This document shows, in pieces, positions 5,971-64,000 of a DNA stretch of 64,000 nt; within the stretch, counting starts at the first letter, position 1; each line of letters begins with the position of its first letter. This DNA is from Dolomedes plantarius (lineage: Eukaryota; Arthropoda; Arachnida; Araneae; Dolomedidae), in NCBI GenBank assembly GCA_907164885.2, contig OU015496.1, positions 138,557,034-138,621,033 on the forward strand, read 5' to 3'. The translations under genes were made by a program, and so were the position numbers. The notes under the pieces were generated by a model. It ran no database searches. It was not told where the DNA came from and worked only from the letters and a program-made list of their open reading frames with translations.

Positions 5971-5979
5971 TTTATAAAA

Positions 5980-6449
5980 CAGTGGTGCACAAAATGTGGG
6001 TCACAACCCACAAGGGGGGTCGCTAAAAAATGGTAGGGTTCGAGGATAGTAAATTTATATCATACTGAATTATGTAATTAAAATTATACTTTAAATTTTG
6101 TATAACCCATACTTTTAATATTTTTAATTATATATTTTTATATTTTAAAAATATGTGTTATGATATTGTTAAATAAGGAATAAGGTGTCAAACAGTCTTA
6201 CGAAAAAAACTTCTTCAGCAAATGACTATACTTACATTACTTCTATTTGCTTCGACATATCTGTGTGAGACTAAGTTTTCAAAACTGGATTTTAAAAATA
6301 GTTTGTCGAAATTTGCAAACATTTTTTATAACATTTTCCTAATTTTTTTTTAATTTTGCTACTAACAAAAAGATTTCGTTGGGGGTCGCGTGAATTATTT
6401 TTTATTTCCAGAAAGTGGGTTGCGATCGAAAAAAGTTTGTACACCACTG
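5980..6449 (+). mobile_element. hAT element remnant with transposase C-terminal fragment
   Basis: The ends are 'cagtggtgcacaaa' at 5980 and 'tttgtacaccactg' at 6449, an inverted repeat with hAT-like CAGTGG termini. Subterminal 'gggttgcgatc'/'gggtcacaaccc' blocks also pair loosely. Around 6236-6320 a short frame reads LLFASTYLCETKFSKL and then LDFKNSLSKFAN, matching the style of the C-terminal dimerisation region of hAT/ZBED-type transposases. The rest of the transposase is missing. Flanking 8-mers ('ttataaaa'/'gtaaaagt') are only loosely alike. Confidence 0.72.
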
Positions 6450-6576
6450 GTAAAAGTACCAATTATTAATTCTCAAGATTTTCTCAGATCTTATTAATAA
6501 GTATTAGTTTATAGAAATTCAGTTCAAATAAATACCGTAAGAAGGGGTTAGAGAAAAAGACAAAAAGGCTGTTACT

Positions 6577-11575: not shown

Positions 11576-12343
11576 ACACACTGAGTGGCAAATTTATAAT
11601 CGCCACCTGTCAATTTTATGCAAATCAGCTATAACGTTACGCTGTTGCTGTTACAGGGGGAGATTGATGTTAAAATGAATTATTGGGCAATTGTAAAGAC
11701 AGTTTAAGTATATTGTTTGTGAAGGAATGCGTAAAAAACGCTCTTTAACGAACATCAAATGTGTTTTGCTTGGGAAGTGATCGAGACCAGCTGTTGCTTA
11801 TGTTCACAAAGAGTGGGCTACCAAACAAAAAACCGGGTCTCGACGTGAGGCGTGTCATTGTCACCAGCTACTGGAAGCTCGAGCTGAAAGGAGAGTTTCC
11901 TGACATGTTCAGTCTAACTGAAGGGAATAGCACATCAAATTACAGCTAATTTTAATTAGAGACCAATGTACTGCTCGCCGGATATTACACCGTATCGAGT
12001 GTCGAATGCCCGGTCAAAACCATTGCTGTCTGCAGTTAACAAGATCAAACGTCTCCAGTTTCCCCAGGAACACAAAGATTGGACAGTAAATGAATCGCAT
12101 ACAGACAGCTAGTAGCGAGTATGGAGATATGGAGAAAACAGCATGACAGATCCTAGAGACGTTCCTACAACACTTCAAGCTGGTAGAGGCAATTTTATGT
12201 TTTGGGCGATGATTTCTGGGCATTGTTTGGTTCCTTTATTTATCCCATTATAGGCCATTGTTTGGGCCCTAATATTGGTCAGGAAGAATGACTGAAGGCC
12301 AAAAGGTATTAAAATATTGCTTCTGACCAAATGCATCCAATTA

Positions 12344-13756: not shown

Positions 13757-14142
13757 TATGTTGATGGTTTACCCCGCTTGAGATGGATACTTCCAGTAGG
13801 ACAATGCTCCCTTCTAAAAACCTCATAATGTTTGTTCACAGATGGTTTGAAGAGCATGATGGATACTTCACCTTGCTTTTAGGCCTCCACAATCCATTTG
13901 TCTCAATCCGATTGAGCATTTGTCGGATGAAGTCAAAAAGAGCATTAGGCAGCTGGATCCAGAACCATACATTCTTAGAGAACTGGAAAGGGCAGTGCAT
14001 TGAATGTGAGCTCAGATTCCTCAAGCCACCTATCAACATCTCATTATATCCATTTCAAAGAGATTGGCAGCTGTATTGCGAGTAAAAGTCGACCCAACGA
14101 TGCCTTTTGTAGGTGGTCATAATAAATTCCCCACTCAGTGTA

Positions 14143-15840
14143 CGCCATATCTTTAGCGATACTTCACTTGTATATCAGGTTTGTAGGTTCCTAGTATAAA
14201 AGAATAAAAATTTTCCATCCAATAGTCACAACAGAAGGGTTTTGGCATTGTTAAATTCATTGAGTATTGATCGACTAAGGAATGAGTTTGCCCATATCCG
14301 CATTACCTATCTCCTTTTCATCGATTATCTCGGCTATTAATTCTATGACAAAGACTGGATCATTTTTTATATGTGTATGTGCTCCAAATTTACATGACAG
14401 AAATAATTTTTACATCCTGTTATTAAACTTTATTAAAGCGTTGTTTGTTTTTATGCAAATGTTCATCGTATGTGCATATATGGAGGGTTCAGAGTTAAGA
14501 TGAACCAAGACCATGAAAGTCAGTTCTGAGAAAACTGATCTCAAAGTTGATCGATTATAATTAATTAACCATTGACTTTCGTTTATCTTTCTGCCTTGGT
14601 AACGCAGTCCCAGATTTTATTTAAACTATTTTATTGCTATTGTCATACAAAATGCAGCTATTATTAAGCCGCTACACAGATTTTGAGAGCAAGCTGGACT
14701 TGATTCATTTTCCCTCTGAAACTTTATGATTTGGGACATTGTTATCATTAAAAACACTCATGTAAGCAGATAGCTCCAGTAAGGCAAGGGCCATTTTTAT
14801 CTTTCAATTTTGCCCAGTGCACGAGGCCTAACCTAAAAGTAGGAGTTTGAAATTCTAGCATTTTCTCTTAAAAGCTCGCAAACGCAAGAATAAAGATCCT
14901 CAAAACCCTTGCTTTCCTCAATGTCGTTTCAAATATACATCTGGCCAGTGGGATCATTGAAGCAGTAGACCAAAATTGCATATAAACATATTTCTTTTGT
15001 TGCATGCAGTAGACTTTGAAAGTTTTGGAAAGGGCAAATGTCTTTTGGAGATCAAATGTTCAAACATAAATCTCATTTGAAGCTGAGTTACTGTCATCTT
15101 TCCGGACTTGCTATGCTCTCTCAGCACGAACTCAATATAGTCCCTTTTCCACTTCAAATGATTTATTTTTCAAGGTCCTGTTTACTTTTAATTTTATTCA
15201 TAAAGCTTATCATACAACCTGCAAGTGTCTTTGGAAGGAACCTTAAATTGAATTGTGTTAAACTGTATTGAATATGTAAATTGAATTGTTTCGAAAACAC
15301 TTATAATAGTACTTTTCTTTGAATGGCTTCGCAGCATAGATATCATACACTCTTTTTATTGTTAAGGTTAGAATGTAGATACTTTTTGTTGACTTAGCCG
15401 CTAAATGAGTAGAGACTCTTGTAGTAAGGGAGAGATTAGGTATGGGCAACGACATCAGAATCATCAATTTTGTTTGAATTTGCCTTACCCCTGCTGTCAA
15501 TCACTTCAAAAATCTCATTTTTATCGAGGCGTTTATACAGCCTCCCCTAACTTATTCTCGATATTCTAAGAAATATTTCCTGCAAACTCTTATAGTCTCA
15601 TCTTTAAACAATAGAGAAATATTTTGTTTTTAACTCAACCATTGCCATCATTTAGGCATGATCTCGTAGTCCTTGAGCTCTGTACTAACCCCCGTAAGAA
15701 AACGTTCTGTTTAGAAAAGTCTGACAACTTCCTAAATGATATAAAAGGTTTCTTCAGAAATGACTTTGAGGTAAATTCAGAGCAATGAAGCAAGTTATAG
15801 AGAAAATAGCTCACTTCTACCCAGACTTGGGTGTATATAA
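14143..15840. other. Intergenic, nothing recognised
   Basis: Short open frames occur on both strands (e.g. 14282-14503 plus, 15038-15271 plus, 15635-15853 minus) without domains. The sequence is AT-rich and unique within the window. The last ~50 bases (15795-15848) match sequence next to the LTR at 63591. Confidence 0.45.
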
Positions 15841-15848
15841 TTTGAAGT

Positions 15849-16300
15849 GGCACTCTATTTGAATTTTATAAAAACACAGTTTATACATGAAACAATGTTT
15901 ATTGAATTCGTTGCACATATATAATTGGCTTTTACAGCAATAAGCATACGTACTACTTGTACGGAATATATATATTTTCATTCAATAGAAATACACATTT
16001 CAGTACTCACAAACCAGCAGAGAGTCAAACCAGCAGTACTGCCACGTAAACTTTGGGGCCCCTAAGCACTAGCGCAGGATAACACCTGGAGCTACTTACC
16101 CCGTAGCTCCCTCTCGCTTATCTATCATCCTTAAAAACAACCTTCCTTCAACCTCAACCCTAACAAACTTTTTTATTAATGACGCTGCATGGTATTTATA
16201 CTAAGCGCGTATGTCGAAATTAGCATATCTCAAGCAGCTTCTTTAATTCATTCACTCAAAAGTTCGATTCTTGTGAATCGAATCTTGTGTATACCTTACA
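15849..16300 (-). mobile_element. Solo LTR, same family as 56291 and 63144
   Basis: The minus strand starts 'tgtaaggtatacacaag' and ends '...agagtgcc', closely matching the two LTRs of the 56-63 kb locus. Shared marks include 'gattcgattcacaagaatcg', a TATA-like 'agtataaatacc', and 'caataaacattgtttcat' as poly(A) signal. 4-bp 'aagt' flanks both ends (15845-15848, 16301-16304), consistent with target duplication. No internal region, so this is a recombination product. Confidence 0.85.
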
Positions 16301-19520: not shown

Positions 19521-19543
19521 ATATATATATATATATATATATA
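19521..19543. repeat. (TA)n run at a Tc1 insertion site
   Basis: About eleven TA units end exactly at the left terminus of the second Tc1 copy. Confidence 0.9.
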
Positions 19544-20989
19544 CACTCATGGACAAAAAAATTAGCGCACCAAGAAATAATTGCGGGATCGTAACGAAAC
19601 TTGCAATGAAGGTACATGTCGGGGAGATATGCAAATGATTAGAAATGCAGCGTGATTGCGCTTTACGTATAGCCGGTAGAGGGCATTGAACATCGTACTC
19701 TGTGGAGTATAAAACAGGTAACCAAAGCTTGTTTGAGTGTGCTGAATCATTTACAAAGGAAGAGCTGAGATAGACATGCTATTACGCCGTGTTCGAAGAC
19801 AATATAAGAAATTGTCGCAGTTTGAGAGGGGAGAATCGTCGGGATGATGGAAGCTGGGTGGTCAGCTAGGCGAGTAGCTCGTCAATTAGGCCGCTCTGAT
19901 TGTGTTGTGAGGAGGCGTTGGGACCAGTGGACCCGAGAGATGCCATGTACACGAAGACCAGGCTCAGGACGCCCTCGACAGACCAGTCGTCGAGAAGACC
20001 AGGCTCAGGACGCCCTCGACAGACCAGTCGTCGAGAAGACCGCCATATCGTAAGAAATGCATGCGTACAGCCAACTGCTTCATCGGCCGCCATCCAGGCA
20101 CAGGTAGCACCTTCACTAGGGGCCTTTGTGTCTTCTCGAACCATACGAAGGCGCCTGACTGAAGGACAGTTGGTATCGCGGCGCCCATTACGTGTTCTGC
20201 CCTTGACGCCTACCCATCGACGCCTCCGTTTGGAGTTTTGCCGCGCACGAGGAAACTGGACTGCAGCGGAATGGAACCTGGTCGTCTTTAGCGACGAATC
20301 CAGATTCAATCTCGGCAGTGATGACAATCGTTTTCGTGTGTGGAGAGCCCGTGGTGAACGCTTCAATCCTGCCTTTGCTGTACAGCGACACATCGCTCCC
20401 ACAGCTGGTGTGATGGTATGGGGTGCCATTGCCTACAATACACGGTCACCCCTAGTATTGTTCCGTGGCACCATGACAGCCCAGCGGTATGTTCATGAAA
20501 TCCTGCAACCACATGTGTTACCACTCATGCAACGGCTCCCAGGAGTCATTTTTCAACAAGACAATGCTCGGCCTTATACGGCAAGTGTGTCAAAAGACTG
20601 TCTCCGCATTGTTACTACCCTTCCTTGGCCTGCCCGATCCCCAGATTTGTCTCCAATCGAGCATATCTGGGATCATTTGGGACGACGAGTTGGGCATCCC
20701 AGGAGTTTGAACGAACTAGAGGCAAGGTTACAGCAAATATGGAACGAAATGTCTCTAGACATCATACAGAACTTGTATGACTCAATGTCCGATCGTATCG
20801 CATCGTGCATTCGCGCTACAGGGGGTCCAACGGAGTATTAACTCCTCCGTTCTTTTGTCTTTTTCTCTGAAATAAATTATCCTTTTTCTTTGATTTTCTT
20901 ATCATTTACTTATATCAAAGTAGTCATTACGTATGTAAAATTTCGTTTCATTTTGACGACTCCTTCTGGGTGCGCTAATATTTTTGTCC

Positions 20990-20996
<7 letters not shown>
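19544..20996 (+). mobile_element. Tc1/mariner element, copy 2 (disrupted)
   Basis: Same family as 12344-13756, in the opposite orientation. The left end 'cactcatggac' matches perfectly; the right end is worn ('tgtccatgtgtg'). TA flanks lie at 19542-19543 and 20997-20998. It is 1453 bp, 40 bp longer than copy 1. This is fully explained by a 41-bp tandem duplication (19956-19996 repeated at 19997-20037) and one base missing in a G-run near 19830. Confidence 0.95.
19776..20841 (+). pseudogene. Tc1-type transposase, copy 2, broken by frameshifts
   Basis: The coding sequence starts at an ATG near 19776 (MLLRRVRRQYKKLSQFERG). It loses frame at a G-run where one base is missing compared with copy 1, giving a stop soon after. 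A second frame carries the helix-turn-helix part from 19844. The 41-bp duplication shifts frame again, after which the sequence is open to 20841 and keeps all three catalytic positions (SDES, QQDN, PIEH). Protein identity to copy 1 is high across the catalytic domain. An internal ATG at 19900 opens a 313-codon frame, but its first ~35 residues are out of the true frame. Confidence 0.9.

Positions 20997-21037
<41 letters not shown>
20997..21037. repeat. (TA)n microsatellite
   Basis: About 20 TA units directly right of the Tc1 copy 2 terminus. The same repeat lies on its left side. Confidence 0.93.
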
Positions 21038-39650: not shown

Positions 39651-39653
<3 letters not shown>

Positions 39654-40443
39654 AACGCGTTGATCGAGGTAGCAATCGACTCAACAAAAAATCACAGCCA
39701 AATAAATTAAAATCGACGAATTTATTTCAATTCGGAGGAGAAAATTTGGAGATTGATGATCCGTTACACAGTTAATGAAAGTCCTCTAAAATGACGACTC
39801 AGTTCTTTAGGAGGAGTTACCACCTGGAGTTTCGCTAATTCAATATCATCGAATAGTTCGTTGAAATTAGAGCAAGTCCCTCGATTTTCACTCCCTGCAG
39901 GGCGGATGACTGCGAGGCACTTTATAGGATCAGGATGATCCGGCCTTGATGATCCGGTCGAACTGTACCCAAGCTTCCTAGCCGAAGCTAAAAGTTCTCT
40001 TCGTGAGAAATAAGCCGCCGACTACGCAAGTCCGCGTATAGCCTTTTTCTTTCGACCTTAGAGGATCGGAGGAGTCTACCACAGCTTAGCAGGTCGCTAA
40101 CTGACTTTTTCTCGCCCCGTCTAATTTTGGACTCTCTCGCTCCGTCCAGAGAACTAGTCTCCTATTGGATCTGCTAATCGTGATGTCATTTTAGACTTTT
40201 CGATTTGCTGGCAGGCAAGGCTGAAATTTTCGTGATTTCCCGGTGGTCCTGCGTCATTAATCTGGAGCACCGTGGCAAATTTCTGTTCCGCCAAGATGTC
40301 ACGTTTTTCCAACCGCTTTGTGTTCCTTTCGTTCCAGTTCGCTGTCACCTGCTATACGTTAAAGGGGGGCGTGTCGGTCAGCTGCGACAATTCCATGTGT
40401 GCAGCGTATGTTTTAATTGTGCGAATTATTTTAATTCATAACA
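39651..40443 (-). repeat. 3' LTR of the gag-protease element
   Basis: 793 bp, bounded by TG and CA (plus strand 'tgtaacgcgttgatcg' to 'aattcataaca'). Highly similar to the LTR at 44407-45199. Frames 40154-40544 lie in the LTR and its edge and are not separate genes. Confidence 0.9.
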
Positions 40444-41087
40444 ATACCTCCCCCGTTGGGGAGATTTTCTCTTGCAGGCAAAATCTGCAAACAAGGGTTA
40501 ACATGGCTCACCTGACAACATCATTAGAGGCAATCATAATTTAATATTTAAAATTACAAAATTAAGTACTTAAAAATTTTCAAACAAAAATTATTTGCAA
40601 CACTATTATACAATTACACACTACTAAATTAGTCAATTAATTACAAATTCTTAAATTATTCAATTGATTACACATTATTAAATTACTCTTTTATTCTGAC
40701 AGCATCCTGCTCAAACAGTCTGCGTTCAATTTCCTTTTCAGAGAATTATAGCAAAATACACATCCTTTTAACTAATTTCCGTTGAAGAAATCTATCACTA
40801 ACCAAAATTCTTGTATGTTTCTTTTCTAGTAAAACATACTATATACAAGTCATTTAAACTAAATTCCCTTCGGAAAGCCTAGCGGCGTTCACAAAAACCA
40901 TCTCATTATTTTTAACAAAAACAGAACAGTTATACAATTGGACACATTATTAAGTAACTTCCCTACATAGAAATAAGCAATTTAAAATTCAATTAACAAC
41001 ACAAAAAAAATCAACACAGTAATACGATTAAATTCCTAGGTTTCCTATTCACACGGATTACCTAGATCATTATAACTACATTTGACC
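40444..41087. other. 3' untranslated part of the LTR element
   Basis: AT-rich, no ORF, with the polypurine tract at its left edge. Confidence 0.55.
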
Positions 41088-41570
41088 CTAAGAATTTCGT
41101 TTGAAAGGTTCGAATTTCTCGAATCTACACCATTTAAATTTGGATGTAACTTTCTGACTCACATCCCACTTGTTCTGAAGTGCCCAAGAAAACTTTTCAC
41201 TGGGTCTCGGTAAGTCAACCGTTCCCTTTATCTTAGAAAATTTCCTCAACTTTCTCTTCTGCTTAAGTCCTAGACAAATTTGCACCTTCTTGGTTAATTT
41301 ACCTTCATTTCCAAATTTTGAGCTCTCATAAGCCCAGAACAACTTTTCCACACGCCTCCCGAGTCGCCCTCGAGTTCCTAATAATAGCTTACTGAGTTCC
41401 TCTTTCGATTTTTCATTTACCCCTTGGGACTTGACATTTTTGGCTGTCTCAGTTTTACGCAACTTCCCTTTCGGAGAGTCACTATTGAAACATCTGGTCA
41501 TTCCATTCTCCTGGGGGGATATACCACGCTCGACCCTATTGTTTGCGTTTTTCTTCAACTCCGTCGAAAC
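41088..41570 (-). CDS. Unknown lysine-rich ORF of the LTR element (ORF3)
   Basis: An open frame of ~156 codons in the place where polymerase would normally lie. It is rich in Lys, Arg, Glu and Ser, with KLRKTETAKNVKSQG and KQKRKLRKFSKIKG text. No retroviral enzyme motif, membrane segment or zinc ligand pattern is visible. No ATG is convincing at its upstream edge; it may continue from the preceding frame through a frameshift. It could be a decayed linker of a polyprotein or an accessory protein; function unknown. Confidence 0.4.
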   Translation of the reverse strand, partial: VSTELKKNANNRVERGISPQENGMTRCFNSDSPKGKLRKTETAKNVKSQGVNEKSKEELSKLLLGTRGRLGRRVEKLFWAYESSKFGNEGKLTKKVQICLGLKQKRKLRKFSKIKGTVDLPRPSEKFSWALQNKWDVSQKVTSKFKWCRFEKFEPFKRNS

Positions 41571-42133
41571 CTGACAATCCAGGTTGGGCGGGTTCGCGCC
41601 CCTCCTCTGGCTTGAGGTTCAACAATGACTTTTCCTAAACCTCCCACTTGGAAAGAAATGCCCACAAAAGACTCTGAACTTGCCTTCGTCAAAAGTGAGT
41701 GCGGTTTCACGAAACCAGTTTCCCTCTGGTCAGAATTAGATCCCTGAAGAACGGTTGCAGGGGAACTTCCCTCAATACCTGTTTCAATCCTGTGACAAAA
41801 CGCAAGTTCCGGCCTGTCGCCTGACCGAAATTCCTCTCTATTCTTACAGAGTAATTTATTTGGTTCCCTCACAGTTTCAGCTCCTACGAATTCCCTAAGG
41901 ATACCCTCGCTAAATTTTGACTCAGTCTCTTGACTCGTTTCCTTTTTGCGTCGACTTTCTCGCGTCACTACCGCATAAATTTTCTGAGAATTATTTTCAC
42001 GGGAGTCAATTAATTTTTGGGTGGAATTCCCCAATAAATAATGGTCTCTACGGATTTCCCTACGGTAGCTGCTTTCGTCAAAATGGTTCCAAATTCGGGA
42101 CTCTCTAATTTTATCCGAGCTAGCGGTAAGCAC
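41555..42133 (-). CDS. Continuation of the gag-protease polyprotein in a shifted frame (ORF2)
   Basis: About 190 codons overlapping the end of gag by 124 bases in another phase. The start is not a true initiation site. The first part (HYLLGNSTQKLIDS, then IYAVVTRESRRKKE) reads like the region following the protease in Ty3/gypsy-type polyproteins. A frameshift near 42030, natural or a mutation, therefore probably separates it from gag. The rest is Glu/Ser/Arg-rich with no recognisable enzyme. Confidence 0.5.
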   Translation of the reverse strand: MLTASSDKIRESRIWNHFDESSYRREIRRDHYLLGNSTQKLIDSRENNSQKIYAVVTRESRRKKETSQETESKFSEGILREFVGAETVREPNKLLCKNREEFRSGDRPELAFCHRIETGIEGSSPATVLQGSNSDQRETGFVKPHSLLTKASSESFVGISFQVGGLGKVIVEPQARGGARTRPTWIVRFRRS

Positions 42134-43404
42134 CTCAATTCATTTTCTAGGGGCTGCCTTACCCATATTTTTTCCCCTGTAAAATCCTCGGGTTTAGTCA
42201 CGAGTAATGGAGCTAAATCAAGACTACTACCTGTATCTCGTAAAATAGTCATTTCCCTAGAATTTACCTTGGCCTGGCTTAAATAGGGTTTAAAAGAGAG
42301 ATCAAAATTTTTCGTCACGGCCAGATAATTTATAATTCCCACCTCATTCCTGGGTTCGGGGCAATTCGGCTTAATGTGCCCTGGCTGATTACAATTATAG
42401 CATACGATTTCCTTCTTACGTTCAAACTCCCTCGTTCGAAATTCAGGATCTATATTCCTAGCACTATATCCATTGTTTTGCCCGCTCTCGCTAGTTTCAA
42501 CTCTTTTCTCAACCTGGGGTTTTTTAGTTTTCGGGCGGTCTACGACTCTCTTTTCCGTAGATTTAAAACTTTGGGGTTTCTTTAAGAAGCGTCTAGATGC
42601 TTCAAAATGGTCTAGTTTCTTTGCTAGATCATCCGGATCATTTAAGTTTCCCCAGTCATCTATGAAATGTTCCTTCATTTCATTAGGGGCGCGTTTTTTC
42701 AACTGATCTACTATCATCAGGTCTTTCAAAGTCTCATAATCTATGACCTCGATTCCCTCTAACCAACCTTCTAGGTAGCTACGCAACTCAAAGATGAGAT
42801 CTTGCCATAGCATCCCCTCTTGTTTCCTGTGTGTCTGAAATTTCGTTCTAAATGCCTCTGATCTAACCTTAAATCTTTCTAACAACACGGATTTAACATG
42901 GTCATAATCATCCCATTTATCGTCCGGTATTTTAACAATTAACTGCGCAATCTCTAGGGGTAGCAACTCAATTAATTCAGTTACCCAATCAGCCTGATCA
43001 ATATCTATTTTCCGAGCTTGGCGCTCAAATAATGTAAGAAATAAAGCCATATCGGACTTTTCTGGGTCGTATTTTTGCATTCTAAGGGTTTTGCGGGGTC
43101 TCGCGCTCTCATTGCTCGTAGAAGCTACGCTAGCGGTTTCGGCGCTCTGCGTTAACCGTAACTTTTGAAGTTCGAAATCTCGTTCCTCCCTTAATTTTCG
43201 AGATTCAAATTCTCTAGCCTCAACTTTTAGTCTATCCTCAATTATGGTTTCCAGCATTAATTTGGCACTTTCTTCGTCATAATCTTCGCTCCCTACGATT
43301 TTCTTAGAGAGGTCTATTATCGTCTCTTCATCCCCCACCTCCAATCGAAATTCCCTAGCGAGGTTTTGAAGATCGGCTTTTCTATGCCGTTTTAAGAAAG
43401 CCAT
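42010..43404 (-). CDS. gag: Gag-protease polyprotein of an LTR retroelement (464 aa)
   Basis: Structural protein of a Ty3/gypsy-type element that would assemble cytoplasmic particles around element RNA. The Met at 43404 (MAFLKRHRKADLQ) is preferred; an in-frame upstream Met at 43434 adds ten residues. Numbering from 43434: a small N-terminal helical region with charged coiled-coil text (10-100); a capsid-like, SCAN-related segment with FxKFQTHRK and LRSYLEGWL patterns (120-285); a CX2CX4HX4C zinc knuckle (C345, C348, H353, C358); then a pepsin-type protease start with DTGS at 400-403. The frame ends at 42010, likely by frameshift relative to the following ORF. No nonsense codon within gag itself. 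Confidence 0.88.
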   Translation of the reverse strand: MAFLKRHRKADLQNLAREFRLEVGDEETIIDLSKKIVGSEDYDEESAKLMLETIIEDRLKVEAREFESRKLREERDFELQKLRLTQSAETASVASTSNESARPRKTLRMQKYDPEKSDMALFLTLFERQARKIDIDQADWVTELIELLPLEIAQLIVKIPDDKWDDYDHVKSVLLERFKVRSEAFRTKFQTHRKQEGMLWQDLIFELRSYLEGWLEGIEVIDYETLKDLMIVDQLKKRAPNEMKEHFIDDWGNLNDPDDLAKKLDHFEASRRFLKKPQSFKSTEKRVVDRPKTKKPQVEKRVETSESGQNNGYSARNIDPEFRTREFERKKEIVCYNCNQPGHIKPNCPEPRNEVGIINYLAVTKNFDLSFKPYLSQAKVNSREMTILRDTGSSLDLAPLLVTKPEDFTGEKIWVRQPLENELRCLPLARIKLESPEFGTILTKAATVGKSVETIIYWGIPPKN

Positions 43405-43434
43405 ATTAATATCTTGCAATTTTACTGGACACAA

Positions 43435-44406
43435 GTTTACTAGACAATTTTACACTCCTAGCTTCCCTTTCCAAAATTTCACAAAATACAATACACTCAG
43501 AAATACAATAATACACAATTCTCTTATCGACTTAGCAGAAGAAAAGGAACTGTTCTTCCATTCAATCGCAACTGCTTTTGAGTAGGGTAGAAAAGCTTAA
43601 CCTCTACAATCGTTGCTTGCTTTCAAATTACAACATACCATAAAGAATCAATAATTCGATTACTAGCAATAATAATATCATTTCAACATCAATATAACAC
43701 TTAGTTGCAATAAACACTTTTCATATACGACACTAAACTCAATTCTTTCACTGGCTAATTTAATTCGTAATATACACAATTCAAAAATACACAGAACTTT
43801 TGCAATTAAGACCACCTTAAAATTTTACTCAATCAATTTTATAATTCAGACTTGCATACTGTTTGAACAGTTACTGATGCTTCCGCGTAACTCTTGCTCT
43901 ACACATAAAAAACACAATTCTATTAAATTTTCACTTGTAATATTTTTCACATATTTTAATTCGAACACAATTACTTTTCGACTAGAATCAAGTTCATTTA
44001 CTAATTTATCTTACAGCACCGTTCAACAATTATACATGCAAAACTAAGAATAGTCTTCAATTTAAAATTAGCATATATTACTTTTACTACACAATTTCTT
44101 TGCCTCTAAGAATGAGTCAGGCTTACCTTCTCTGACGACCCTCGTTCTGCAATCGATGTCGGTCAGCTCAATGTTGTGGCTCCTTTGCGGAATTTTGTCG
44201 GCACGGCAACGGGTATTAGTACACGGCGGTTTCCATCGGCTGAGGCTCCCGGTACTTCTACTTTCCAGGACGGGGTGTCCTAACAGGGGTACTTCCTGGA
44301 CAGGGTGTCCTACATCTATCTTCGTCGATAATGTGCACAATGTCGTGGGCCGTCGCTGTTGATTAAACGACGATTCTTGATCCCACCGCTGCCACCAATA
44401 TAAGGC
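43435..44406. other. 5' leader of the LTR element
   Basis: AT-rich leader of ~970 bases between the gag start and the primer-binding site, including higher-GC text at 44130-44390. The minus-strand frame at 44068-44340 has no domain and may be a leader ORF or chance. Confidence 0.55.
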
Positions 44407-45199
44407 TTTAACACGTTAATCCAGGTAGCAATCGACTCAACAAAACATCACAGCCAAATAAATTAAAATCGACGAATTTATTTCAATTCGGAGGAGAAAA
44501 TTTGGAGATTGATGATCCGTTACACAGTTAATGAAAGTCCTCTAAAATGACGACTGAGTCCTTTAGGAGGAGTTACCACCTGGAGTTTCGCTAATTCAAT
44601 ATCATCGAATAATTCGTTGAAATTGGAGCAAGTCCCTCGATTTTCACTCCCTGCAGGGCGGATGACTGCGAGGCACTTTATAGGATCAGGATGATCCGGC
44701 CTTGATGATCTCGTCGAACTGTACCCAAGCTTCCTAGCCGAAGCTAAAAGTTCTCTTCGTGAGAAATAAGCCGCGGACTACGCAAGTCCGCGTATAGCCT
44801 TTTCCTTTCGACCCTGGATGGTCGAAGGAGTCTACCACAGCTTAGCAGGTCGCTAACTGACTTTTTCTCGCCCCGTCTAATTTTGGACTCTCTCGCTCCG
44901 TCCAGAGAACTCGTCTCCTATTGGATCTGCTAATCGTGATGTCATTTTAGACTTTTCGATTTGCTGGCAGGCAAGGCTGAAATTTTCGTGATTTCCCGGT
45001 GGTCCTGCGTCATTAATCTGGAGCACCGTGGCGAATTTCTGTTCCGCCAAGATGTCATGTTTTTCCAACCGCTTTGTGTTCCTTTCGTTCCAGCTCGCTG
45101 TCACCTGCTATACGTTAAAGGGGGGCGTGTCGGTCAGCCGCGACAATTCCATGTGTGCAGCGTATGTTTTAATTGTGCGAATTATTTTAATTCGTCACA
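44407..45199 (-). repeat. 5' LTR of the gag-protease element
   Basis: 793 bp, colinear with 39651-40443. The edge next to the primer-binding site has mutated ('ttaaa' instead of 'ttaca' on the minus strand). Outer boundary '...attcgtcaca'. Frames within 44877-45410 are LTR sequence. Confidence 0.9.
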
Positions 45200-45204
45200 A
45201 TATA

Positions 45205-55032: not shown

Positions 55033-55969
55033 GAGTGTGAACTAATAGTAGGAATTGAAAAAAAGGATTGCCTGCCAGAACCTTGCCTACTGTGCGAGAT
55101 TAGGAGGAGGGGGGGGGGGGGAAGAGAGAGAAAAAGTTCGTCAGGTTGGGGATTCGATCTCGCAACCTACAGGACGGGAGAAGCCCGCGATACCGCAGTG
55201 CTACTGTTTACACAGTAACAAGAGGGAAATTACTATTCAAGAGCAAGAGACGCTCTAGGTCTAAAACTAAAATTGATTAATTAAATTTAATTAATGAATT
55301 AATATTTGAAAAAACTGTATTAACATCAAGTGTCATCCACTACAAGTTTAAAAAAATGTATTTGAACTTGAGTGGATGAATAAAAAGTACTTTTATTAAC
55401 GACTGAAAATTTGAACAAGATATATATGGTCTAAAACTAAAATTGATTAATTAAATTTAATTAATGAATTAATATTTGACAAAACTGTATTAACATCAAG
55501 TGTCATCCACTACAAGTTTAAAAAAATGTATTTGAACTTGAGTGGATGAATAAAAAGTACTTTTATTAACGATTGAAAATTTGAACAAGATATATATGGT
55601 CTAAAACTAAAATTAATTAATTAAATTTAATTAATGAATTAATATTTGAAAAAACTGTATTAACATCAAGTGTCATCCACTACAAGTTTAAAAAAATGTA
55701 TTTGAACTTGAGTGGATGAATAAAAGTACTTTTATTAACGATTGAAAATTTGAACAAGATATATATGGTCTAAAAAAAATTGACTAATTAAATTTAATTA
55801 ATGAATTAATATTTGAAAAAACTGTATTAACATCAAGTGTCATCCACTACAAGTTTAAAACAATGTATTTGAACTTGAGTGGATGAATAAAAAGTACTTT
55901 TATTAACGACTGAAAATTTGAACAAGATATATATAGAGAGAGTGTGAACTAATAGTAGGAATTGAAAAA
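55033..55969. mobile_element. Composite insertion flanked by 30-bp direct repeats
   Basis: 'gagtgtgaactaatagtagg' plus ten more identical bases occurs at 55033-55062 and 55940-55969. Between them are a stretch with tRNA-like minus-strand text ('gcgagatcgaatcccc' near 55152-55168), a G-run, and the 170-bp tandem array. The 30-bp flanks may be an unusually long target duplication or the edge of a larger array. Confidence 0.6.
55258..55934. repeat. 170-bp tandem repeat, four units
   Basis: Units begin 'ggtctaaaa' at 55258, 55428, 55598 and 55767 with lengths 170, 170, 169 and 168. They are nearly identical. Each holds an inverted pair, 'catccactacaagttt' and 'gaacttgagtggatg', separated by ~12 bases, plus an internal palindromic 'aattaaatttaatt'. 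No hammerhead-ribozyme core (CUGANGA...GAAA) was found on either strand. Confidence 0.93.
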
Positions 55970-56290
55970 GCCGCCTGATTCAGGGTTTAATTTTCCTGAT
56001 TAGCAGTTTTACCTGTTTTGGGTATCACACTTTAGTATCTTAAACATATTTTCTTATCCTTCTAGTTATATTTCCATTTTTGTAACATGTCCAAAACAGC
56101 CTTTCATTTTTCCAGTGTACACTATTATACACTCATCGATGTGATTATTCCTATAAAGTCTTAATTTCTAATATTGTCGTTTCTCTGTCCGGTTAGATCA
56201 ATATGTTTGCTCGGAATATATATATTCATCTAAATAAAATAAAAAGTAAAGTAAAAGTCGCGTAAAACGCAGACGTAGCTGTAAACGCTT

Positions 56291-56737
56291 TGCAAGGTAT
56301 ACACAAGATTCGATTCGCAAGAATCGAACTTTTGAGTGAATGAATTAAAGAAGCTGCTTGAGATATGCTAATTTCGGCATACGCGCTTAGTATAAATACC
56401 ATGCTGCGTCATTAATGAAAAAGGTTGTTAGGGTTAAAAGAAGGTTGTTATGGTTGATAGATAAGCGAGAGGGAGCTACGAGGGTATGCAGCTCCAGTAC
56501 TATCCGGTGCTAGTGCTTAGGGGCCCAAATTTTACGTGGCAGAATTGCTGGTTGACTCTCTGCTGGTTTGTGAGTATTGAAATGTGTATTTCTATTGAAT
56601 GTTAATATATATATTCCGTACAAGTAGTAAGTATGCTTAATGCTGTAAAAGCAAATTCTATATGTGCAACGAATTCAATAAACATTGTTTCATGTATAAA
56701 CTGTGTTTGTATCAAATTCAAATAGAGTGCCCCTTAG
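56291..56737 (+). repeat. 5' LTR of the 56-63 kb locus
   Basis: Starts 'tgcaaggtatacacaag' and matches the LTR at 63144 almost base for base until '...agagtgcc', after which they differ. TATA-like 'agtataaatacc' and 'caataaacattg' as poly(A) signal. A primer-binding-site-like 'tggcgcccgaaag' starts at 56750. The precise 3' edge is uncertain by about 15 bases. Confidence 0.85.
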
Positions 56738-56749
56738 TATACTCTATAG

Positions 56750-56762
56750 TGGCGCCCGAAAG
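56750..56762 (+). promoter_or_regulatory. Primer-binding site
   Basis: 'tggcgcccgaaag' directly after the left LTR resembles tRNA-primed binding sites of LTR elements (TGGCGCCCGAA core). Confidence 0.7.
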
Positions 56763-56881
56763 TTTATATATACCCTGGTTGTTATCGTTACATTTATAAC
56801 GAACAACATAATTGAAGTTAAACTGTGTACTGTGTACTTATATTGATAAAATTGTTGCAAGTACTTATATACTATTTGAAA

Positions 56882-57667
56882 ATGAGTGTTGTAGAACAAA
56901 ACCCTGCTGGAAATTTTCCTCGGGTAATTATGGTTCAGCAAATTGCGCCATTCGAAGCCACCTTCAATGGCGGCCCCTCAAGCCAATTCCTAAAGAAAAT
57001 TGAGCATTACTTTCAGCAACATTGCACACCAGAGGGGGAGAAACTTAAAATTGCTCTAGCCGCTTTAAGAGGTAGTGCATATCAGTGGTACACGTGTATG
57101 CAAAGCAGTAATCTGATTTTTGACTATTCGTCATTCAAGCAACAGTTTCTTAGCGTTTTTCCAAAGACCTTTAATCAAAGTCAAATTGAAGCGGAAATTT
57201 ATTCACTAAGGCAACGTGAAGGTCAGTCTGCGTTAGATTTTGCTATGGAAAAGATTTCCAAGTGTGAGGAATATCTAGAAGGGGTGACGGAAGCGGTAAT
57301 CTTAAAAATAGTTATCCAACGTTTGAAGCCAAGTGTTCAAGATTTTTTAGATAATCAAAATGTTACAAGCAAGGTTACCCTCCTTCAAACTTTAGCTAAA
57401 CATGACAATAGGCATTTCTTCGCTACCCCGTACCCTCACCCAGGTACGAGAAGTTTTATACACCCCCGCCAAAATTTTTCATGAGTTTCAAACCAGCAGC
57501 AAAACCAGTATCGCAGGCGAAATAATAGAGGCGCATGGCGTTACAATGAAATTAGTGCACTTAAAGTAAATAATCTGCAAGCACCTCACGTGCACTGGCA
57601 AGTTGATTCACATGATATGGTTCAACCTGTTGAAACTGTGTGGTCAAATGTATTAACTTTGTTATGA
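56882..57667 (+). CDS. gag: Gag of an LTR retroelement, with one in-frame TGA
   Basis: Capsid-type structural protein. The Met at 56882 (MSVVEQNPAGNFPRV) is preferred over an upstream in-frame ATG at 56825. The frame runs 200 codons to TGA at 57482-57484, then remains open in the same phase for 60 further codons to TGA at 57665-57667. Retrotrans_gag-like core: FNGGPSSQFLKKIEHYFQQH (~25-45), LRGSAYQWY (~68-77), FKQQFLSVFP (~93-102) and SLRQREGQSALDFAMEK (~115-130). After the stop, QQQNQYRRRNNRGAWRY is a basic stretch fit for RNA binding. No CCHC knuckle. The TGA may be a recent nonsense mutation or a read-through site. Confidence 0.82.
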
Positions 57668-57693
57668 GGGGTACCAGAGATACCCCTTTGCGT

Positions 57694-58065
57694 TGTGTAA
57701 ATATAGGGAGGTGAACTCCAAAGGGAACTATGCGTTTATAAATAAAAATAACAACATTTATTATACAATATTTTACAAGAAAAGGTCGGGTTTACATATT
57801 ATATTTAAGATCTTGGCTATACATATTTTTAACCGAATTAGGGCATACTTCATCCGCTTCCTGCGGCATAACCATTACGGGTCGAGTGAAATAAAAGTCT
57901 CGTAATCTCTCAAAAGGCATGAGCACTATTTAAAGGGGGAATTTATGACCAACCTGGGGAGTTTTGATGAAACAGCAAAGCATGGCATCGTTGAGGCACT
58001 TCTACAGGAGGAGGCTTTAGGGATCGGGCTGAAATTCAAGTGGCTCTTCACTGGCGGAGGCAACA
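57694..58065 (-). repeat. Probable LTR on the minus strand
   Basis: Read on the minus strand it begins 'tgttgcctccgccagtg' and ends 'ctatatttacaca', with a TATA-like 'ctttaaatagtgc' near base 125 and 'ataataaatgttg' near base 290. That order (promoter, then poly(A) signal, TG...CA ends) suits an LTR. No target duplication, because its right edge abuts the inverted repeat arm at 58061-58297. It may be the 3' LTR of the element that supplied the integrase piece. The frames at 57926-58244 on both strands are not supported as genes. Confidence 0.42.
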
Positions 58066-58297
58066 GGATTCGGCGCTGGCGGTTGAAGACGGACATCTCG
58101 CCATTTTTACGGGGGCGTCTTTTCTTCCCAGGCTCTCTTCGCAGCTCGCTACCTCCAATCGCTCCCTCGCTCTCTCTCCGAACGTCGTTTTTGTCCCACA
58201 CTCGGGGCTCCTACATTCTTCATTATAACCCCTCCCCAGGTTAGTTATTCACGTAAATTTATTGCCTCTTTGAGTTTTTTATTCGAGGGCAGGATGC
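58061..58297 (-). repeat. Inverted repeat arm, partner of 61034-61270
   Basis: 237 bp, the reverse complement of 61034-61270 with few differences. On the minus strand it runs from 'gcatcctgccctcgaat' to 'cgccgaatcctgttg'. The last five bases 'tgttg' are shared with the adjoining LTR start, suggesting a microhomology junction. Confidence 0.88.
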
Positions 58298-58464
58298 TCT
58301 GACATTCCCATGGTTGACCCACGTGGTACGTTTATTTCCAAGAAAATTGGAAGTCCGTTGAATTTCCTGGAATTTCTTTCCCCCGTCTTGAGGAATTCAG
58401 GGGGTGCGATGTTTCTTGGAAAATTGGTGCAGTTCCAATATGGCCGATTTATGCCCCGTAATCG
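58298..58464. other. Unique spacer before duplicated exon piece
   Basis: Less AT-rich, non-repetitive. Could be the original upstream region of the duplicated exon. Confidence 0.35.
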
Positions 58465-58674
58465 TGTTGGAAGAACAAAATGGCTATAACGTTGGAAGGA
58501 GTTCAAAATGTCCAAATTGTGGATCCTTCACTACAATCATTCCCCCCCTTTTCTAGGCGTGCTGGCACGCCACAGTCTGTAGGGGTTGAAGAACGGATTG
58601 GCTCCATTCGCTTCAGCAAAATAGACTCCAACTGCACAAAAGTCACAATGGCAGTAAAAAAAAATCATGAATGA
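58465..58674 (+). pseudogene. Truncated duplicate of the start of the unknown ORF at 61281
   Basis: 58465-58537 matches 61266-61338 with one mismatch, including the ATG and MAITLEGVQNVQIVDPS. After that the two diverge. Here the frame reads on for another ~45 codons without similarity to the longer copy, to a stop at 58674. It may be the original first exon followed by its intron, or a fragment left by duplication. Confidence 0.55.
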
Positions 58675-58679
58675 CATCA

Positions 58680-59156
58680 GTTGTAAAAGTTCAGGAGGTC
58701 AAAATCTCCCCTTATAGTGCTGCAAGTTTTACTGATTTAAAAAAAAAATTCAAAATTTATAAAGTTTTCTTTAAGCTTACATTAACTCTGACCAACATTA
58801 ACTAACATCATAGAAAATGGTATGCATACCCTGTAAAACAAATAATAACAAAATAGTGGCTCGATCAACACATGTGATCAGAGATTAAAATGTAAAGAAA
58901 AGGTTATCTTACAGAAATAGAAATCTCTCCGCTAAAATCGTACAGCGAAGATGAAATTTTCAAAAACGTTGGCAAATGTGCATAATCGCCATTATGTGTT
59001 TAACTCGCGGAAAGAGTAAAAATGTTCTCTTTTCCTTGCGCTGCCATTTGTGTGAAACATATAATGTGCTATCCATGCATTCAATAATAATAGTACTAAT
59101 AATGATAATAATAATAATAAAACACAATAATAAAACACAATACACGCTAATCTTTT

Positions 59157-59226
<70 letters not shown>

Positions 59227-59715
59227 TTTTCCTTTTTTTTTTGTTTATTTATTCATTCCCCAACGAAATTGACCAAATTTTGCTCTATCATCAGATTTGT
59301 ACACTGAAACATCGTCAAATTGAATTTAAACTATGCGCACAAATGAACCCACGACGAAAATTCTAAAGTCTGCTAAGTTTCCTAAAAAAAAATTATATAG
59401 ATATCTCATAGCAATATAACAGAAGACGAAGAGTTAAGAGAGAGAGAAAAAAAAAACTTATTTTTGCCAAAATAAAACTTAACCGAAAGGAGAGAAAAAA
59501 AAAATATATTTACTTGTTACAACTCGGTTTTCAGAAGCCCATCGTTAATACCATATAGTTGATCAGATTATATGTGAAAAACGAATGAGTTCGTCAAACT
59601 GAGCCTACCCATGTACGCAGCCACTGGTGAGACAATTTTTTGAGAATGGCCAGTTCCCAAAACGGTCTTTCCGTGACTCTAACCCGCGAGGCGGGAGAAA
59701 AAAAAATTTTGTAGT
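58680..59715. other. AT-rich spacer with (TA)n array
   Basis: Contains (ATA)n near 59105-59120, a TA microsatellite at 59158-59222, and purine-rich runs near 59435-59510. No ORF of interest. It lies downstream of the ABCA-integrase frame on the minus strand, so it may be its 3' untranslated region. Confidence 0.5.
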
Positions 59716-61032
59716 TTAGGTTTTTGGGGTTCGCTGTCGAAGAAAATATCTAGTTTGAATAAAAGGCGTTTTTGACTGATGGGTTGCCCCCCGAAGATTT
59801 GATGGCTGTGAGACCGTCTGCTCATTGTCCTGATTCTCTTTTGGCGGAACATTAGCGACCTGTTCCTGTGTCAACTGCGCTCCCCGCGACTGTTGGCAAG
59901 GTTCGAAATCTTCGTCATAGGGGAAAAAATTCTCTTCCTCATTTTGGGGGGTCATTTCCGAGAACGGGGAAAATGTATCCTGCGGGTCCTCGCGAATGTT
60001 ACCGGTTATCGTGTCCTTTGGACGCAAGTGCTCTCGTCGCTCAGGCAATTCGTATATTCGATTGATATTACAATTTATTTCCGTAGCGTATGGGTCCGCG
60101 ATTAGCCGTAATTTGTAAGTGTGGGGCGTAAGGCGATTCGTAATTCTATAAGGTCCCCTGAAGGTTTTCTTACCGATAGCCGATTGATGGTTACGCACAA
60201 AGACTTTTTGCCCGATAATTAGGGTTCGGGGTTTCGCTTTGAGCAATTGTCTTTCTTCTTGCTTTTCCTGTGCGGTTGTCATATTTCTCAGCGCGTTTTC
60301 ATATGCCTTTGTCACAGCTCTAATTTTTTCTGCTGCGTAATCACCGAATAAAGGCAGTGGATCGATATTTAAATTGTCCGTGTCTAGAAATAAAGGAAGA
60401 TCTCTTCCAAAAAAGAGAAAATTTGGCGTCTCCTTTGTTGCGGAATGCTGAGTGGCATTATAAATACATTTGTGCATGATCATCGCCTCTTTAACAATAT
60501 CAATAATACAATTCCATAAAAATCTCCTAGCTTTAGGATCCATTCCTGTTGTTGGTTCATCCAAAAATACAACTGATGGATTTCCAATAAGTGCAATTGC
60601 AGTAGACAATTTCCATTTATTACCGCCAGAATAAGTTCCAGCACATCTATGGCCATGAGCTAACAGACCCAGTTTTCGAATACCCCATACTGCAACCTTG
60701 CGCACATGCTTTTCAGGGATTCCTCTTAGACGAGCATAAAATTCTAAATGCTCATAACCAGTTAAATGAGAATCTAAGGCATCAAACTGTGGACAATATC
60801 CAATACTTTGACGAGCAGCATCAATATCTGTTTTGATGCTATGACCAGCAATGAAAGCATTTCCAGATGTAATAGGAGTGTTCCCAGTCAACATTTTAAA
60901 GGTTGTTGTTTTACCAGCTCCATTCATTCCAAGTAAGCCAAAACACTCCCCAGGTTGGACAGCAATACAAAGCTGATTGACTGCAGGGTACTGTCCTGGT
61001 TTATATACCTTTGTTAGACTCTCCATTCTCAA
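59716..61032 (-). CDS. Chimeric ORF: ABCA-type ATPase domain fused to Ty3/gypsy integrase C-terminus (438 codons)
   Basis: Residues 1-182 are a nucleotide-binding domain of an ABCA-subfamily lipid transporter. Walker A is at 35-43 (GMNGAGKTT), the Q-loop at 79-84 (YCPQFD), the ABC signature at 134-138 (YSGGN), Walker B at 156-160 (FLDEP) and the D-loop TTGMDP at 161-166. The domain is cut after IIDIVKE, just before the switch histidine, so it lacks the H-loop. From ~183 the protein is integrase: [11 protein letters not shown] (191-201), GRD (209-211), then a GPY motif (293-295) in [10 protein letters not shown] and a charged tail. No stop interrupts the junction. The first codon of the open frame is TTG; the first ATG (residue 3) is at 61026. 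A splice-acceptor-like 'cgagggcag' precedes the ABCA part, so this may be a genomic ABCA exon rather than a full gene start. Not expected to transport or integrate by itself. Confidence 0.82.
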
Positions 61033-61033
61033 T

Positions 61034-61270
61034 GCATCCTGCCCTCGAATAAAAAACTCGAAGAGGCAATAAATTTACGTGAATAACTAACCTGGGGAGG
61101 GGTTATAATGAAGAATGTAGGAGCCCCGAGTGTGGGACAAAAACGACGTTCGGAGAGAGAGCGAGGGAGCGATTGGAGGTAGCGAGCTGCGAAGAGAGCC
61201 TGGGAAGAAAAGACGCCCCCGTAAAAATGGCGAGATGTCCGTCTTCAACCGCCAGCGCCGAATCCTGTTG
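61034..61270 (+). repeat. Inverted repeat arm, partner of 58061-58297
   Basis: 237 bp directly upstream of the ATG of the unknown ORF; higher GC, with 'ggagagagagcgagggagcg' and 'aaatggcgagatg'. Its position suggests a promoter/5' untranslated region, possibly bidirectional, that was duplicated in inverted orientation. It abuts the start of the ABCA exon on its left. Confidence 0.88.
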
Positions 61271-61280
61271 GAAGAACAAA

Positions 61281-62612
61281 ATGGCTATAACGTTGGAAGG
61301 AGTTCAAAATGTCCAAATTGTGGATCCTTCACAACAAACTTGTCCGAGCAGTAATCATTATTTTGAGAATAGTGAAAGTCGGGGTATTTTTGTGACTTAT
61401 AATGAAAGTGAGTCTAGCTGGAATAATGTGGTAATTCCAGTACAAATTTCTGAAAATAGTGCCGATACTAATGCTAGTGGTTTAGAAAATAAATCATCTG
61501 ATACTTCTACTAATGATATACCTGATATTTTAGATGATATTCACACATCTGTTAATGAAGGAAACTTAGTAGATGACGAAGTATGTGTTACGGAATTTAG
61601 TGAATACATATTAGTTGACGACAATAAAAATTCTTTAAACGATATTAGGAACTCGCTAGGTAATGATGATATTATTTCAAGTTCCCAACCGAATGGGGAT
61701 TGTGTAGGCCAGGTTGATAATATGGTTTTAAATAAAGTACATGAAAACCAGACTGAGAATCAGGATGAAAAGTTGACACAGAGTTATACTGTAAGTAGTT
61801 TAGCTGATGCTTCGGAAGTTATAGACGTAGTTTGCATTAAAACTCACCAGTACGAAAAGCTTAATCTTCCTAAAACTGAAGCAGTGTTAAAGAATTTAAA
61901 TGATAGCGATTCTGAAGAAGGACGTTTTAAAGAGACTTTTTCGTCAAAAGAGGATAAAACTAAAGTTAAGGGGAATAAAAAACGTGTAAAAGCGCCTTCA
62001 GGTTCCAGCATTAAAACTGCTAATACTGAAGTAATTAAGGCGGTAAACAAGAAGTCGTATAAGCACATATACGAAAAACAGAGTCAGGTTGTTGAAAAAT
62101 ATGAAACAAGCGGTGAACTAAATTGTAAACGCATCATAAATGGCGAGATAAAGCCAGTAACTGAACACATAGGTGCGGCGTATAAGTTTGAAAAAATAGA
62201 ATCTGCATTAAAATCTAATACCGATACAAGCAAAAGTACGAAGAAAAGTAAAGTGTGTACTGCAAAACCTCCATCAAAGGATGAACGTGGCACACATAAG
62301 GTACACAAGGTTATCAAAAGGAGGAATTGCAGTTTTAAAGCTCCTTTGCATAAGTACAGGAAACGCAAGATATCAGCCGCCCAGCAAGGTTGGCCTCCTC
62401 CCAAGAGACCTCCTGTCCATCATCAAGACGGACCAGCGCCTCAGGACCAACGACCTGCTGCACGAAGGAGGCCCACATGGTCAACGAATCCCTTTACTAG
62501 GACTGCGACCATCAAGAGAGGTTCCACGGAATGGACAGACTGGTGCAGGGAAGTTGCCGCTTTCATGAACAAGTCTTGTATCAATTCTCTTTTTCTAACT
62601 CCCACCCTTTAA
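61281..62612 (+). CDS. Unknown protein, acidic then lysine-rich (443 aa), intronless
   Basis: The ATG at 61281 (MAITLEGVQNVQIVDPSQQ) is chosen because the same start is duplicated at 58481 and the sequence before it looks untranslated; an in-frame ATG at 61173 adds 36 residues. Residues ~20-200 are rich in Asp, Glu, Asn and Ser with no hydrophobic segments. 200-390 are Lys/Ser-rich with clusters such as KVKGNKKRVKAPSG and YRKRKI, suggestive of a nuclear protein. The C-terminus becomes Pro/Arg-rich and may be out of the original frame: another phase over 62359-62568 reads RDLLSIIKTDQRLRTNDLLH. The stop at 62610-62612 overlaps a poly(A) signal ('taataaaac'). I do not recognise the family. It could be a captured host gene or an accessory gene of the LTR element. 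Confidence 0.6.
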   Translation: MAITLEGVQNVQIVDPSQQTCPSSNHYFENSESRGIFVTYNESESSWNNVVIPVQISENSADTNASGLENKSSDTSTNDIPDILDDIHTSVNEGNLVDDEVCVTEFSEYILVDDNKNSLNDIRNSLGNDDIISSSQPNGDCVGQVDNMVLNKVHENQTENQDEKLTQSYTVSSLADASEVIDVVCIKTHQYEKLNLPKTEAVLKNLNDSDSEEGRFKETFSSKEDKTKVKGNKKRVKAPSGSSIKTANTEVIKAVNKKSYKHIYEKQSQVVEKYETSGELNCKRIINGEIKPVTEHIGAAYKFEKIESALKSNTDTSKSTKKSKVCTAKPPSKDERGTHKVHKVIKRRNCSFKAPLHKYRKRKISAAQQGWPPPKRPPVHHQDGPAPQDQRPAARRRPTWSTNPFTRTATIKRGSTEWTDWCREVAAFMNKSCINSLFLTPTL

Positions 62613-63129
62613 TAAAACTGAACCAAATTGGTTTGAAGTTCCCCATTGTATATACTGTGTAAACATTTTGAGGGGAAGGGGTGAGGCACTGAAAAAAAAC
62701 GGCATACTGTTTTTTTATAAATTTTTGAAGGGGACATGTAGTGAAAAAAAATACATACTAACTACAGATAACAACTAACTAACATACTAACTTCACAAAA
62801 CATAACACATGTGCATTATGAATTGGGGAAGAGCAGCTACAAACAGTCAAGAAATGTCATGCTGTGCAATTGTGTTGACACTTTTAATTAAAATAGATCT
62901 TCTAGAGTGCAGTTGGCAAGGCCAGTATCCGCAACTCTGCAAATCCACTGTTTGATGGTGTCACCTGGACCCTTCGGGGTTAGTTTTGTAAAATGGTAGT
63001 GGCGTTTTCCCCCACACAACGTGTGGAAGGTTTTTTGGCTTTGCCACCCATTATGTAAAAAGTCAGACCAGCACGCGTTTTCAATTAGTTAACTGAAGCC
63101 GTTCAGACCTCAGTTACCTAATTTTTTTT
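62613..63129 (+). other. 3' region of the composite locus
   Basis: Starts with 'aataaaactgaacc' (poly(A) signal). AT-rich text to 62880 is followed by less AT-rich sequence to 63110 with no ORF, ending at a T-run and the polypurine tract. Confidence 0.5.
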
Positions 63130-63130
63130 T

Positions 63131-63143
63131 CAAGGGAGGCCAG
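63131..63143 (+). promoter_or_regulatory. Polypurine tract before the right LTR
   Basis: 'caagggaggccag' lies immediately before the LTR start 'tgtaagg', where plus-strand priming is expected. Confidence 0.62.
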
Positions 63144-63590
63144 TGTAAGGTATACACAAGATTCGATTCGCAAGAATCGAACTTTTGAGTGAATGAATTA
63201 AAGAAGCTGCTTGAGACATGCTAATTTCGGCATACGCGCTTAGTATAAATACCATGCTGCGTCATTAATGAAAAAGGTTGTTAGGGTTAAAAGAAGGTTG
63301 TTAAGGTTGATAGATAAGCGAGAGGGAGCTACGAGGGTATGCAGCTCCAGTACTATCCGGTGCTAGTGCTTAGGGGCCCAAATTTTACGTGGCAGAATTG
63401 CTGGTTGACTCTCTGCTGTTTTGTGAGTATTGAAATGTGTATTTCTATTGAATGTTAATATATATATTCCGTACAAGTAGTAAGTATGCTTAATGCTGTA
63501 AAAGCAAATTCTATATGTGCAACGAATTCAATAAACATTGTTTCATGTATAAATTGTGTTTGTATCAAATTCATTTAGAGTGCCACTTCA
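63144..63590 (+). repeat. 3' LTR of the 56-63 kb locus
   Basis: Starts 'tgtaaggtatacacaag'. Nearly identical to 56291-56737 and to the inverted solo LTR at 15849-16300. Followed by 'aattatatacacctaaatct', which matches the flank of that solo LTR for about 50 bases. Confidence 0.9.
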
Positions 63591-64000
63591 AATTATATAC
63601 ACCTAAATCTGGGTAAAGTGAGCTATTTTCTATAGCTTTAAGAACACAAACATCACTGGAAATTATATATCTCCACTCATTCTCAACATCAGCAACAGAA
63701 TTATTACTTTCTTGCAATTTTGAAGCACTTCGCACTCAATTTTCGACATGTTTATCATCTGGTCAGAGCTCTCCTCCATGCAGAGGTCATCACTTTTTTT
63801 CGAAATAATCAAAATAATTATCATCACTCTAAACTGTGGATCGAACTCTTCCTTAAAACAGGTTCAAAGCGTCATCTTTATTTACTGGTCTATTGCTTCC
63901 TGCTGAAAAATTATGGTCTAGATTACAGTATAAATTAAATGAAAAATACAGTTTTTTAATCCATTTGTTCAAATAACTCACTGCTAAGAATATATGTTTA
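63591..64000. other. Right edge, nothing recognised beyond the shared LTR flank
   Basis: The first ~50 bases match the sequence next to the LTR at 15849. The 72-codon plus frame at 63720-63938 has no domain. Confidence 0.45.

Follow-up and report, generated by a model that had tools for sequence, protein, structure and literature searches.

Results

Architecture of the locus and its chimeric reading frame. The window, by which we mean the whole 64,000-nucleotide stretch analyzed here (C6:138557034-138621033 of the 2.78-Gb Dolomedes plantarius assembly), carries on its minus strand, from 61074 to 59716, a stop-free frame of 452 codons that joins an ABCA nucleotide-binding domain to an integrase tail. 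The Pfam model ABC_tran matches residues 33 to 176 of this frame (E = 8.5e-25), the second nucleotide-binding domain of ABCA1 is the best relative of solved structure, aligning with query residues 12 to 198, and the closest protein, from the pseudoscorpion Cordylochernes scorpioides, is 76% identical to the ABCA half among the best 120 of 7,548 protein matches. Since no protein in that best 120 covers more than 46% of the query, none of them shares the fusion. The frame has an in-frame ATG at residue 17 and retains 50 of 51 near-invariant ABCA columns, but its ABCA text stops at V-K-E, whereas the parent gene (see below) continues G-R-S-V-I-L-T-S-H, the codon after the S being CAC; the frame thus leaves ABCA before the switch histidine. 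The nucleotide-binding domain is accordingly incomplete, membrane domains are absent, and the remainder of the frame is pol. For the integrase half alone, Pfam ranked two integrase C-terminal models highest (E = 0.0074 and 0.016), each below its cut-off; no protein homologue was found at E ≤ 1e-3 among 568 length-restricted candidates, and the sequences of solved structures gave a best E of 0.17 with no integrase among the matches. The preliminary description of this DNA had reported one uninterrupted minus-strand frame, ending its ABCA part just short of the switch histidine and passing into integrase text, and in these respects it holds: the histidine is missing by comparison with both the translation and the bases of the parent exon, and the integrase assignment, weakly supported in its own right beforehand, is secured by the genome search, which places this half at the end of the pol frame of a Ty3/gypsy family, here called family B. 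The edge it gave, 61032, is one position away from where the ABCA sequence begins, 61033, and the junction between the two halves falls at 60486-60491.

The frame belongs to a larger chimeric copy of family B (57660-61336, minus strand), which matches full copies of the family, has TG...CA LTR ends with the edges TGTTATGAGG and CTTCACAACA, and is flanked on the left (57655-57659) and on the right (61337-61341) by the 5-bp target-site duplication AACTT. In order along the plus strand, it comprises a complete 3' LTR (57660-58535, minus strand), a 3' noncoding region (58536-59715, minus strand) that is contiguous with pol in copies of the family, the end of pol (59716-60491, minus strand), which holds the C-terminal part of integrase up to the native stop, the ABCA fragment (60486-61033, minus strand), an inverted fragment of the B LTR (61034-61270, plus strand) and the outer 71 bases, or U3 start, of the 5' LTR (61266-61336, minus strand). 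The 5' LTR of this copy consists of the last two pieces only, and no intact LTR is directed into the chimeric frame. The captured piece therefore lies within LTR-element sequence that has LTR termini and the same duplication on both sides.

The ABCA half derives from a spliced message. A protein search of the assembly with the ABCA half returned 21 matches (52 candidates, all scored), among which the window copy alone is unbroken over 188 residues and is thus the sole processed copy; four exon-sized matches (89 to 98% identical) follow one another in order within C6:190148545-190155133, and the 16 remaining ones are 37 to 65% identical. The parent, a lipid-transporter gene at C6:190148545-190159038 on the same contig and 51 Mb from the window, aligns with the fragment in five blocks, of which the most 5' lies at C6:190159038. 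Read from 61033 to 60486, these blocks measure 25, 170, 142, 135 and 76 bases and are separated in the parent by four introns with GT-AG boundaries, all missing from the captured copy, where the five exon blocks are joined directly. The fragment takes in three entire exons and portions of two others, and both of its ends fall mid-exon: beyond the captured piece, the translation of the parent is D-D-D-V-A-M-E-R-S-K-V-L-G-G on the upstream side and G-R-S-V-I-L-T-S on the downstream side. Because the four introns are precisely absent and 544 of 548 bases agree with the spliced parent, the ABCA half is, judged by its sequence, a cDNA of a spliced message that was cut mid-exon at each end. The four differences are at 60535, 60613, 60615 and 61006. 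Two of them fall in one codon, changing the arginine after SGGNK to tryptophan, and the other two are silent; this arginine is invariant in all 113 aligned homologues (7 of 120 are omitted from the count, their alignment being short or missing).

These results bear on the origin proposed in the preliminary description, namely, that a single host ABCA exon had been joined to a retroelement either by capture or by insertion into the transporter gene. In place of a single exon there are five, three of them complete, and insertion into the gene is contradicted by the position of the matching exons elsewhere on the contig; recent capture of host ABCA sequence by a Ty3/gypsy element, on the other hand, agrees with the genome search of both halves.

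Family B, the donor element. The integrase half had at least 148 scored matches in the assembly, including that of the window itself, a lower bound given 2,642 candidates; many are 98 to 99% identical, and many form the terminal part of a pol frame that can reach about 1,344 codons. In two full copies, L031 and L032, the LTRs (876 and 873 bp) are 100% identical within each copy. L032 has frames of 1,259 and 358 codons; its pol, scanned as three pieces, matched Pfam models for protease, reverse transcriptase, RNase H and integrase core, all above cut-offs and in the Ty3/gypsy order, and its gag gave a Ty3-type capsid match below cut-off. Family B is a young, high-copy Ty3/gypsy family; some of its genomic copies combine LTRs that match each other exactly with extended gag and pol frames and may be competent source elements. 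The region 57660-60491 of the window matches it as a single stretch in L032 (from 57656 in L031). The pol part of the chimera begins at L032 position 3696, and the catalytic core (rve, about 3780-4070) lies upstream of that start, so the core is missing from the chimera. The 3' LTR of the chimera (57660-58535) is only about 94 to 95% identical over its length to the full LTRs of the four loci compared (L031 to L034), and for this reason the immediate B parent was not found among them.

Nineteen other B loci, drawn from the 147 other scored matches, were covered for about 1.5 kb on each side of the match rather than as whole elements. Stretches of at least 60 bases absent from L032 occur in three of them: at one end of L022; at one end of L026, where the sequence is rich in tandem repeats and the next 3.9 kb fetched held no B sequence; and in L023, as an 856-base block that by eye resembles the LTR of another element. 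No host coding piece was recognized by eye in the extra stretches of L023 or L026. Separately, L017, L024 and L027 show internal jumps (in L032 coordinates, 4848 to 6671, 4232 to 4363, and an LTR joined to pol at 4644, respectively); since jumps of this kind affect 3 of the 19 loci within the sequence covered, aberrant B copies are not rare.

Junctions. The ABCA and pol pieces overlap in the six-base string AAGAGG (60486-60491, minus strand), which is common to both parents and lies in the same codon phase in each. A junction marker string was found in 20 of the 21 B loci examined and is absent from L016; these 20 loci represent 18 copies (L013 and L031 are one copy, as are L025 and L032), 17 of which have AAGAGG and one, L013/L031, AAGGGG, and AAGAGG is also the reading of the ABCA parent and of the window. 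The inverted LTR fragment, in turn, is joined to the outer 71 bases at a shared TGTTG. Microhomology thus accompanies two of the three junctions, with none clear where the inverted LTR meets ABCA (61033/61034). The composition also changes near the ABCA/pol junction: the ABCA piece has 5 CpG against 19.9 expected (observed/expected, 0.25) and the pol piece has 48 against 37.8 (1.27; Fisher p = 8.7e-6), with the last pol CpG at 60484 and the next at 60624. Such a break fits a CpG-depleted host gene meeting an undepleted element.

The outer element and other repeats of the window. The chimeric copy is nested in a second LTR element, element A (56291-63634, plus strand), delimited by a direct repeat (5' LTR, 56291-56748; 3' LTR, 63144-63634) and flanked by the 4-bp duplication GCTT (56287-56290 and 63635-63638). 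A gag-like frame of element A (56822-57481, plus strand) matches Retrotrans_gag above cut-off (E = 3.3e-6) and Ty3_capsid below it (E = 1.1e-4). When 57660-61336 and one AACTT are removed in silico, a second frame reads through the empty site, 57485-57659 joining 61342-62612 (plus strand) to give 481 codons; this continuation past the B insertion explains most of the plus-strand frame 61083-62612. Between the two LTRs of element A there are 8 differences in about 450 aligned bases, together with an indel close to the end. The LTR pieces of the B copy differ from its own 3' LTR at 1 of 237 bases (inverted fragment) and at 1 of 71 (outer end, a count that leaves out five bases preceding the TGTTG switch point). 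Element A is older than the B copy because the latter is nested in it, and the divergences agree without proving the order (8/~450 versus 2/303; Fisher p = 0.33). The four ABCA changes modestly exceed the 1.8 that the divergence of the B LTR pieces would predict (P = 0.11), and the ages of the LTR pieces and of the ABCA fragment appear mutually compatible.

Positions 62371-63143 of element A resemble the ABCA piece in their low CpG content (observed/expected, 0.55 and 0.40), a hint that more host sequence may have been captured; two frames scanned there gave no Pfam match. A solo LTR of the element A family lies at 15796-16300 (minus strand; 4-bp duplication ACTT; about 90 to 93% identical to the LTRs of A), and a four-copy tandem array of a 170-bp unit (55258-55934) precedes element A by a few hundred bases. 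Elsewhere in the window, a further LTR pair (39653-45202; 794 bp, 97%) encloses a minus-strand, zinc-knuckle gag-like frame (42013-43449), where a scan of three frames revealed no pol domain, and two Tc1-like transposon copies, so named from the reading of their frames (12342-13759 and 19541-20998), are 94% identical and in opposite orientation.

Discussion

We consider it very probable (about 0.94) that the chimera arose by an accident of reverse transcription in family B, in which the enzyme switched templates between B RNA and ABCA mRNA and the product was then inserted by integrase. Both templates, a transcript of B and an mRNA of the ABCA gene, probably shared one particle. Reverse transcriptase would have begun on B RNA with the 3' LTR, the noncoding region next to it and the last part of pol, before moving at the six shared bases AAGAGG onto the spliced ABCA mRNA, of which it would have copied 548 bases toward the 5' end. 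It would next have entered an inverted stretch of LTR, which requires one more change of strand, and would have finished in the outermost part of U3, reached through TGTTG. The pieces and their boundaries are observed, and their order fits minus-strand synthesis leaving B RNA within pol for ABCA mRNA and ending in the LTR. The resulting short cDNA, which kept two LTR termini, was then inserted into element A, probably by integrase, leaving the 5-bp duplication that is observed. The ABCA-integrase frame would be a by-product, in-phase shared bases having let ABCA read into the native pol end and its stop.

A different reading is that selection maintains the long frame as a new gene whose product would be a free-standing ABCA ATPase domain ending in an integrase tail. 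Its 452 open codons, the 50 of 51 near-invariant columns kept, the in-frame ATG at residue 17 and the silence of the change in two of the three altered codons would all be in keeping with such a gene. However, with just 4 of 548 bases changed, the ABCA part would be open regardless, and two of the four changes turn the invariant arginine of SGGNKR into tryptophan. Moreover, of the 5' LTR that would drive the frame, only an inverted piece and the outermost 71 bases survive, and only one of the 21 genomic matches is a processed copy. Selection is also unnecessary for the in-frame join, because the codon phase of the six shared bases is identical in the two parents, a one-in-three chance. We regard a selected gene as highly improbable; of the earlier argument that an open junction is unlikely unless recent or selected, recency stands, whereas the in-phase shared bases and the 4/548 differences speak against the appeal to selection.

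It is extremely unlikely that the assembly joined unrelated repeats here, even though the high copy number of family B could mislead an assembler. Perfect target-site duplications occur at both nested levels; the inverted LTR piece agrees at 236 of 237 bases with the 3' LTR of its own copy but only at about 92 to 94% with the full-copy LTRs compared; and the ABCA piece has private changes relative to its parent. The erroneous junction or collapsed misassembly that the preliminary description had named as grounds for refutation is countered by the same duplications on both elements and by those private ABCA differences. That a B element in an ABCA intron gave a spliced chimeric transcript that was retroposed later has a next to negligible probability, given that the ABCA and pol texts do share one orientation but both ABCA breakpoints lie mid-exon, away from splice sites, and the join falls within a six-base string common to both parents.

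As to function, the chimera, lacking the switch histidine, transmembrane parts, an integrase core and an intact 5' LTR, is probably inactive, and its anatomy makes it most likely that it is neither transcribed from a promoter of its own nor active. The ABCA piece lies antisense relative to element A, an LTR of which would transcribe it in antisense; over 548 bases, the complementarity of such a transcript to the ABCA message would be 99.3%, and small RNAs fed by it could lower expression of the transporter. In a moth, PxyMasc retrocopies are reported to lower gene expression through small RNAs (PMC9674220); for the present locus we hold such an effect to be very unlikely.

The locus provides an unusually clean view of the uptake of a host message by an LTR retrotransposon, legible from one assembly: the gene of origin, the family that took up its message, the points of template switching, the target-site duplications and the relative ages. 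The locus is no new gene but a clear case, of recent date, of a known copying accident, and it advises caution, in that a long open frame fusing two protein families may be just such a recent accident. A literature search returned no publication on an ABCA-retrotransposon-integrase fusion and, among the matches listed, no title describing such a case in arachnids. The process itself has precedents. LTR-mediated retrocopies in animals, which join host mRNA to an LTR element through template switching between copackaged RNAs (Tan and coworkers, as summarized in a review, PMC5408686), are described there as arising by switching at microsimilarities, as integrating with LTRs and as often containing partial mRNA; the present copy compares with them, with microhomology at two of its three junctions. 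In contrast to that account, the present copy has a 5' LTR that is mostly lost and partly inverted, and it is nested in another LTR element. Bs1 of maize (PMC5408686) is likewise an LTR element with pieces of cellular genes, but it is tied to retrocopies of three genes, whereas here there is one gene piece and one copy was found. Template switching between copackaged RNAs has also been described for chimeric plant elements (PMC1950507; PMC13317346), including complex insertions of cereal LTR elements; those cereal insertions, as reported (PMC1950507), fuse two retrotransposon sequences, whereas in the spider one partner was a host mRNA.
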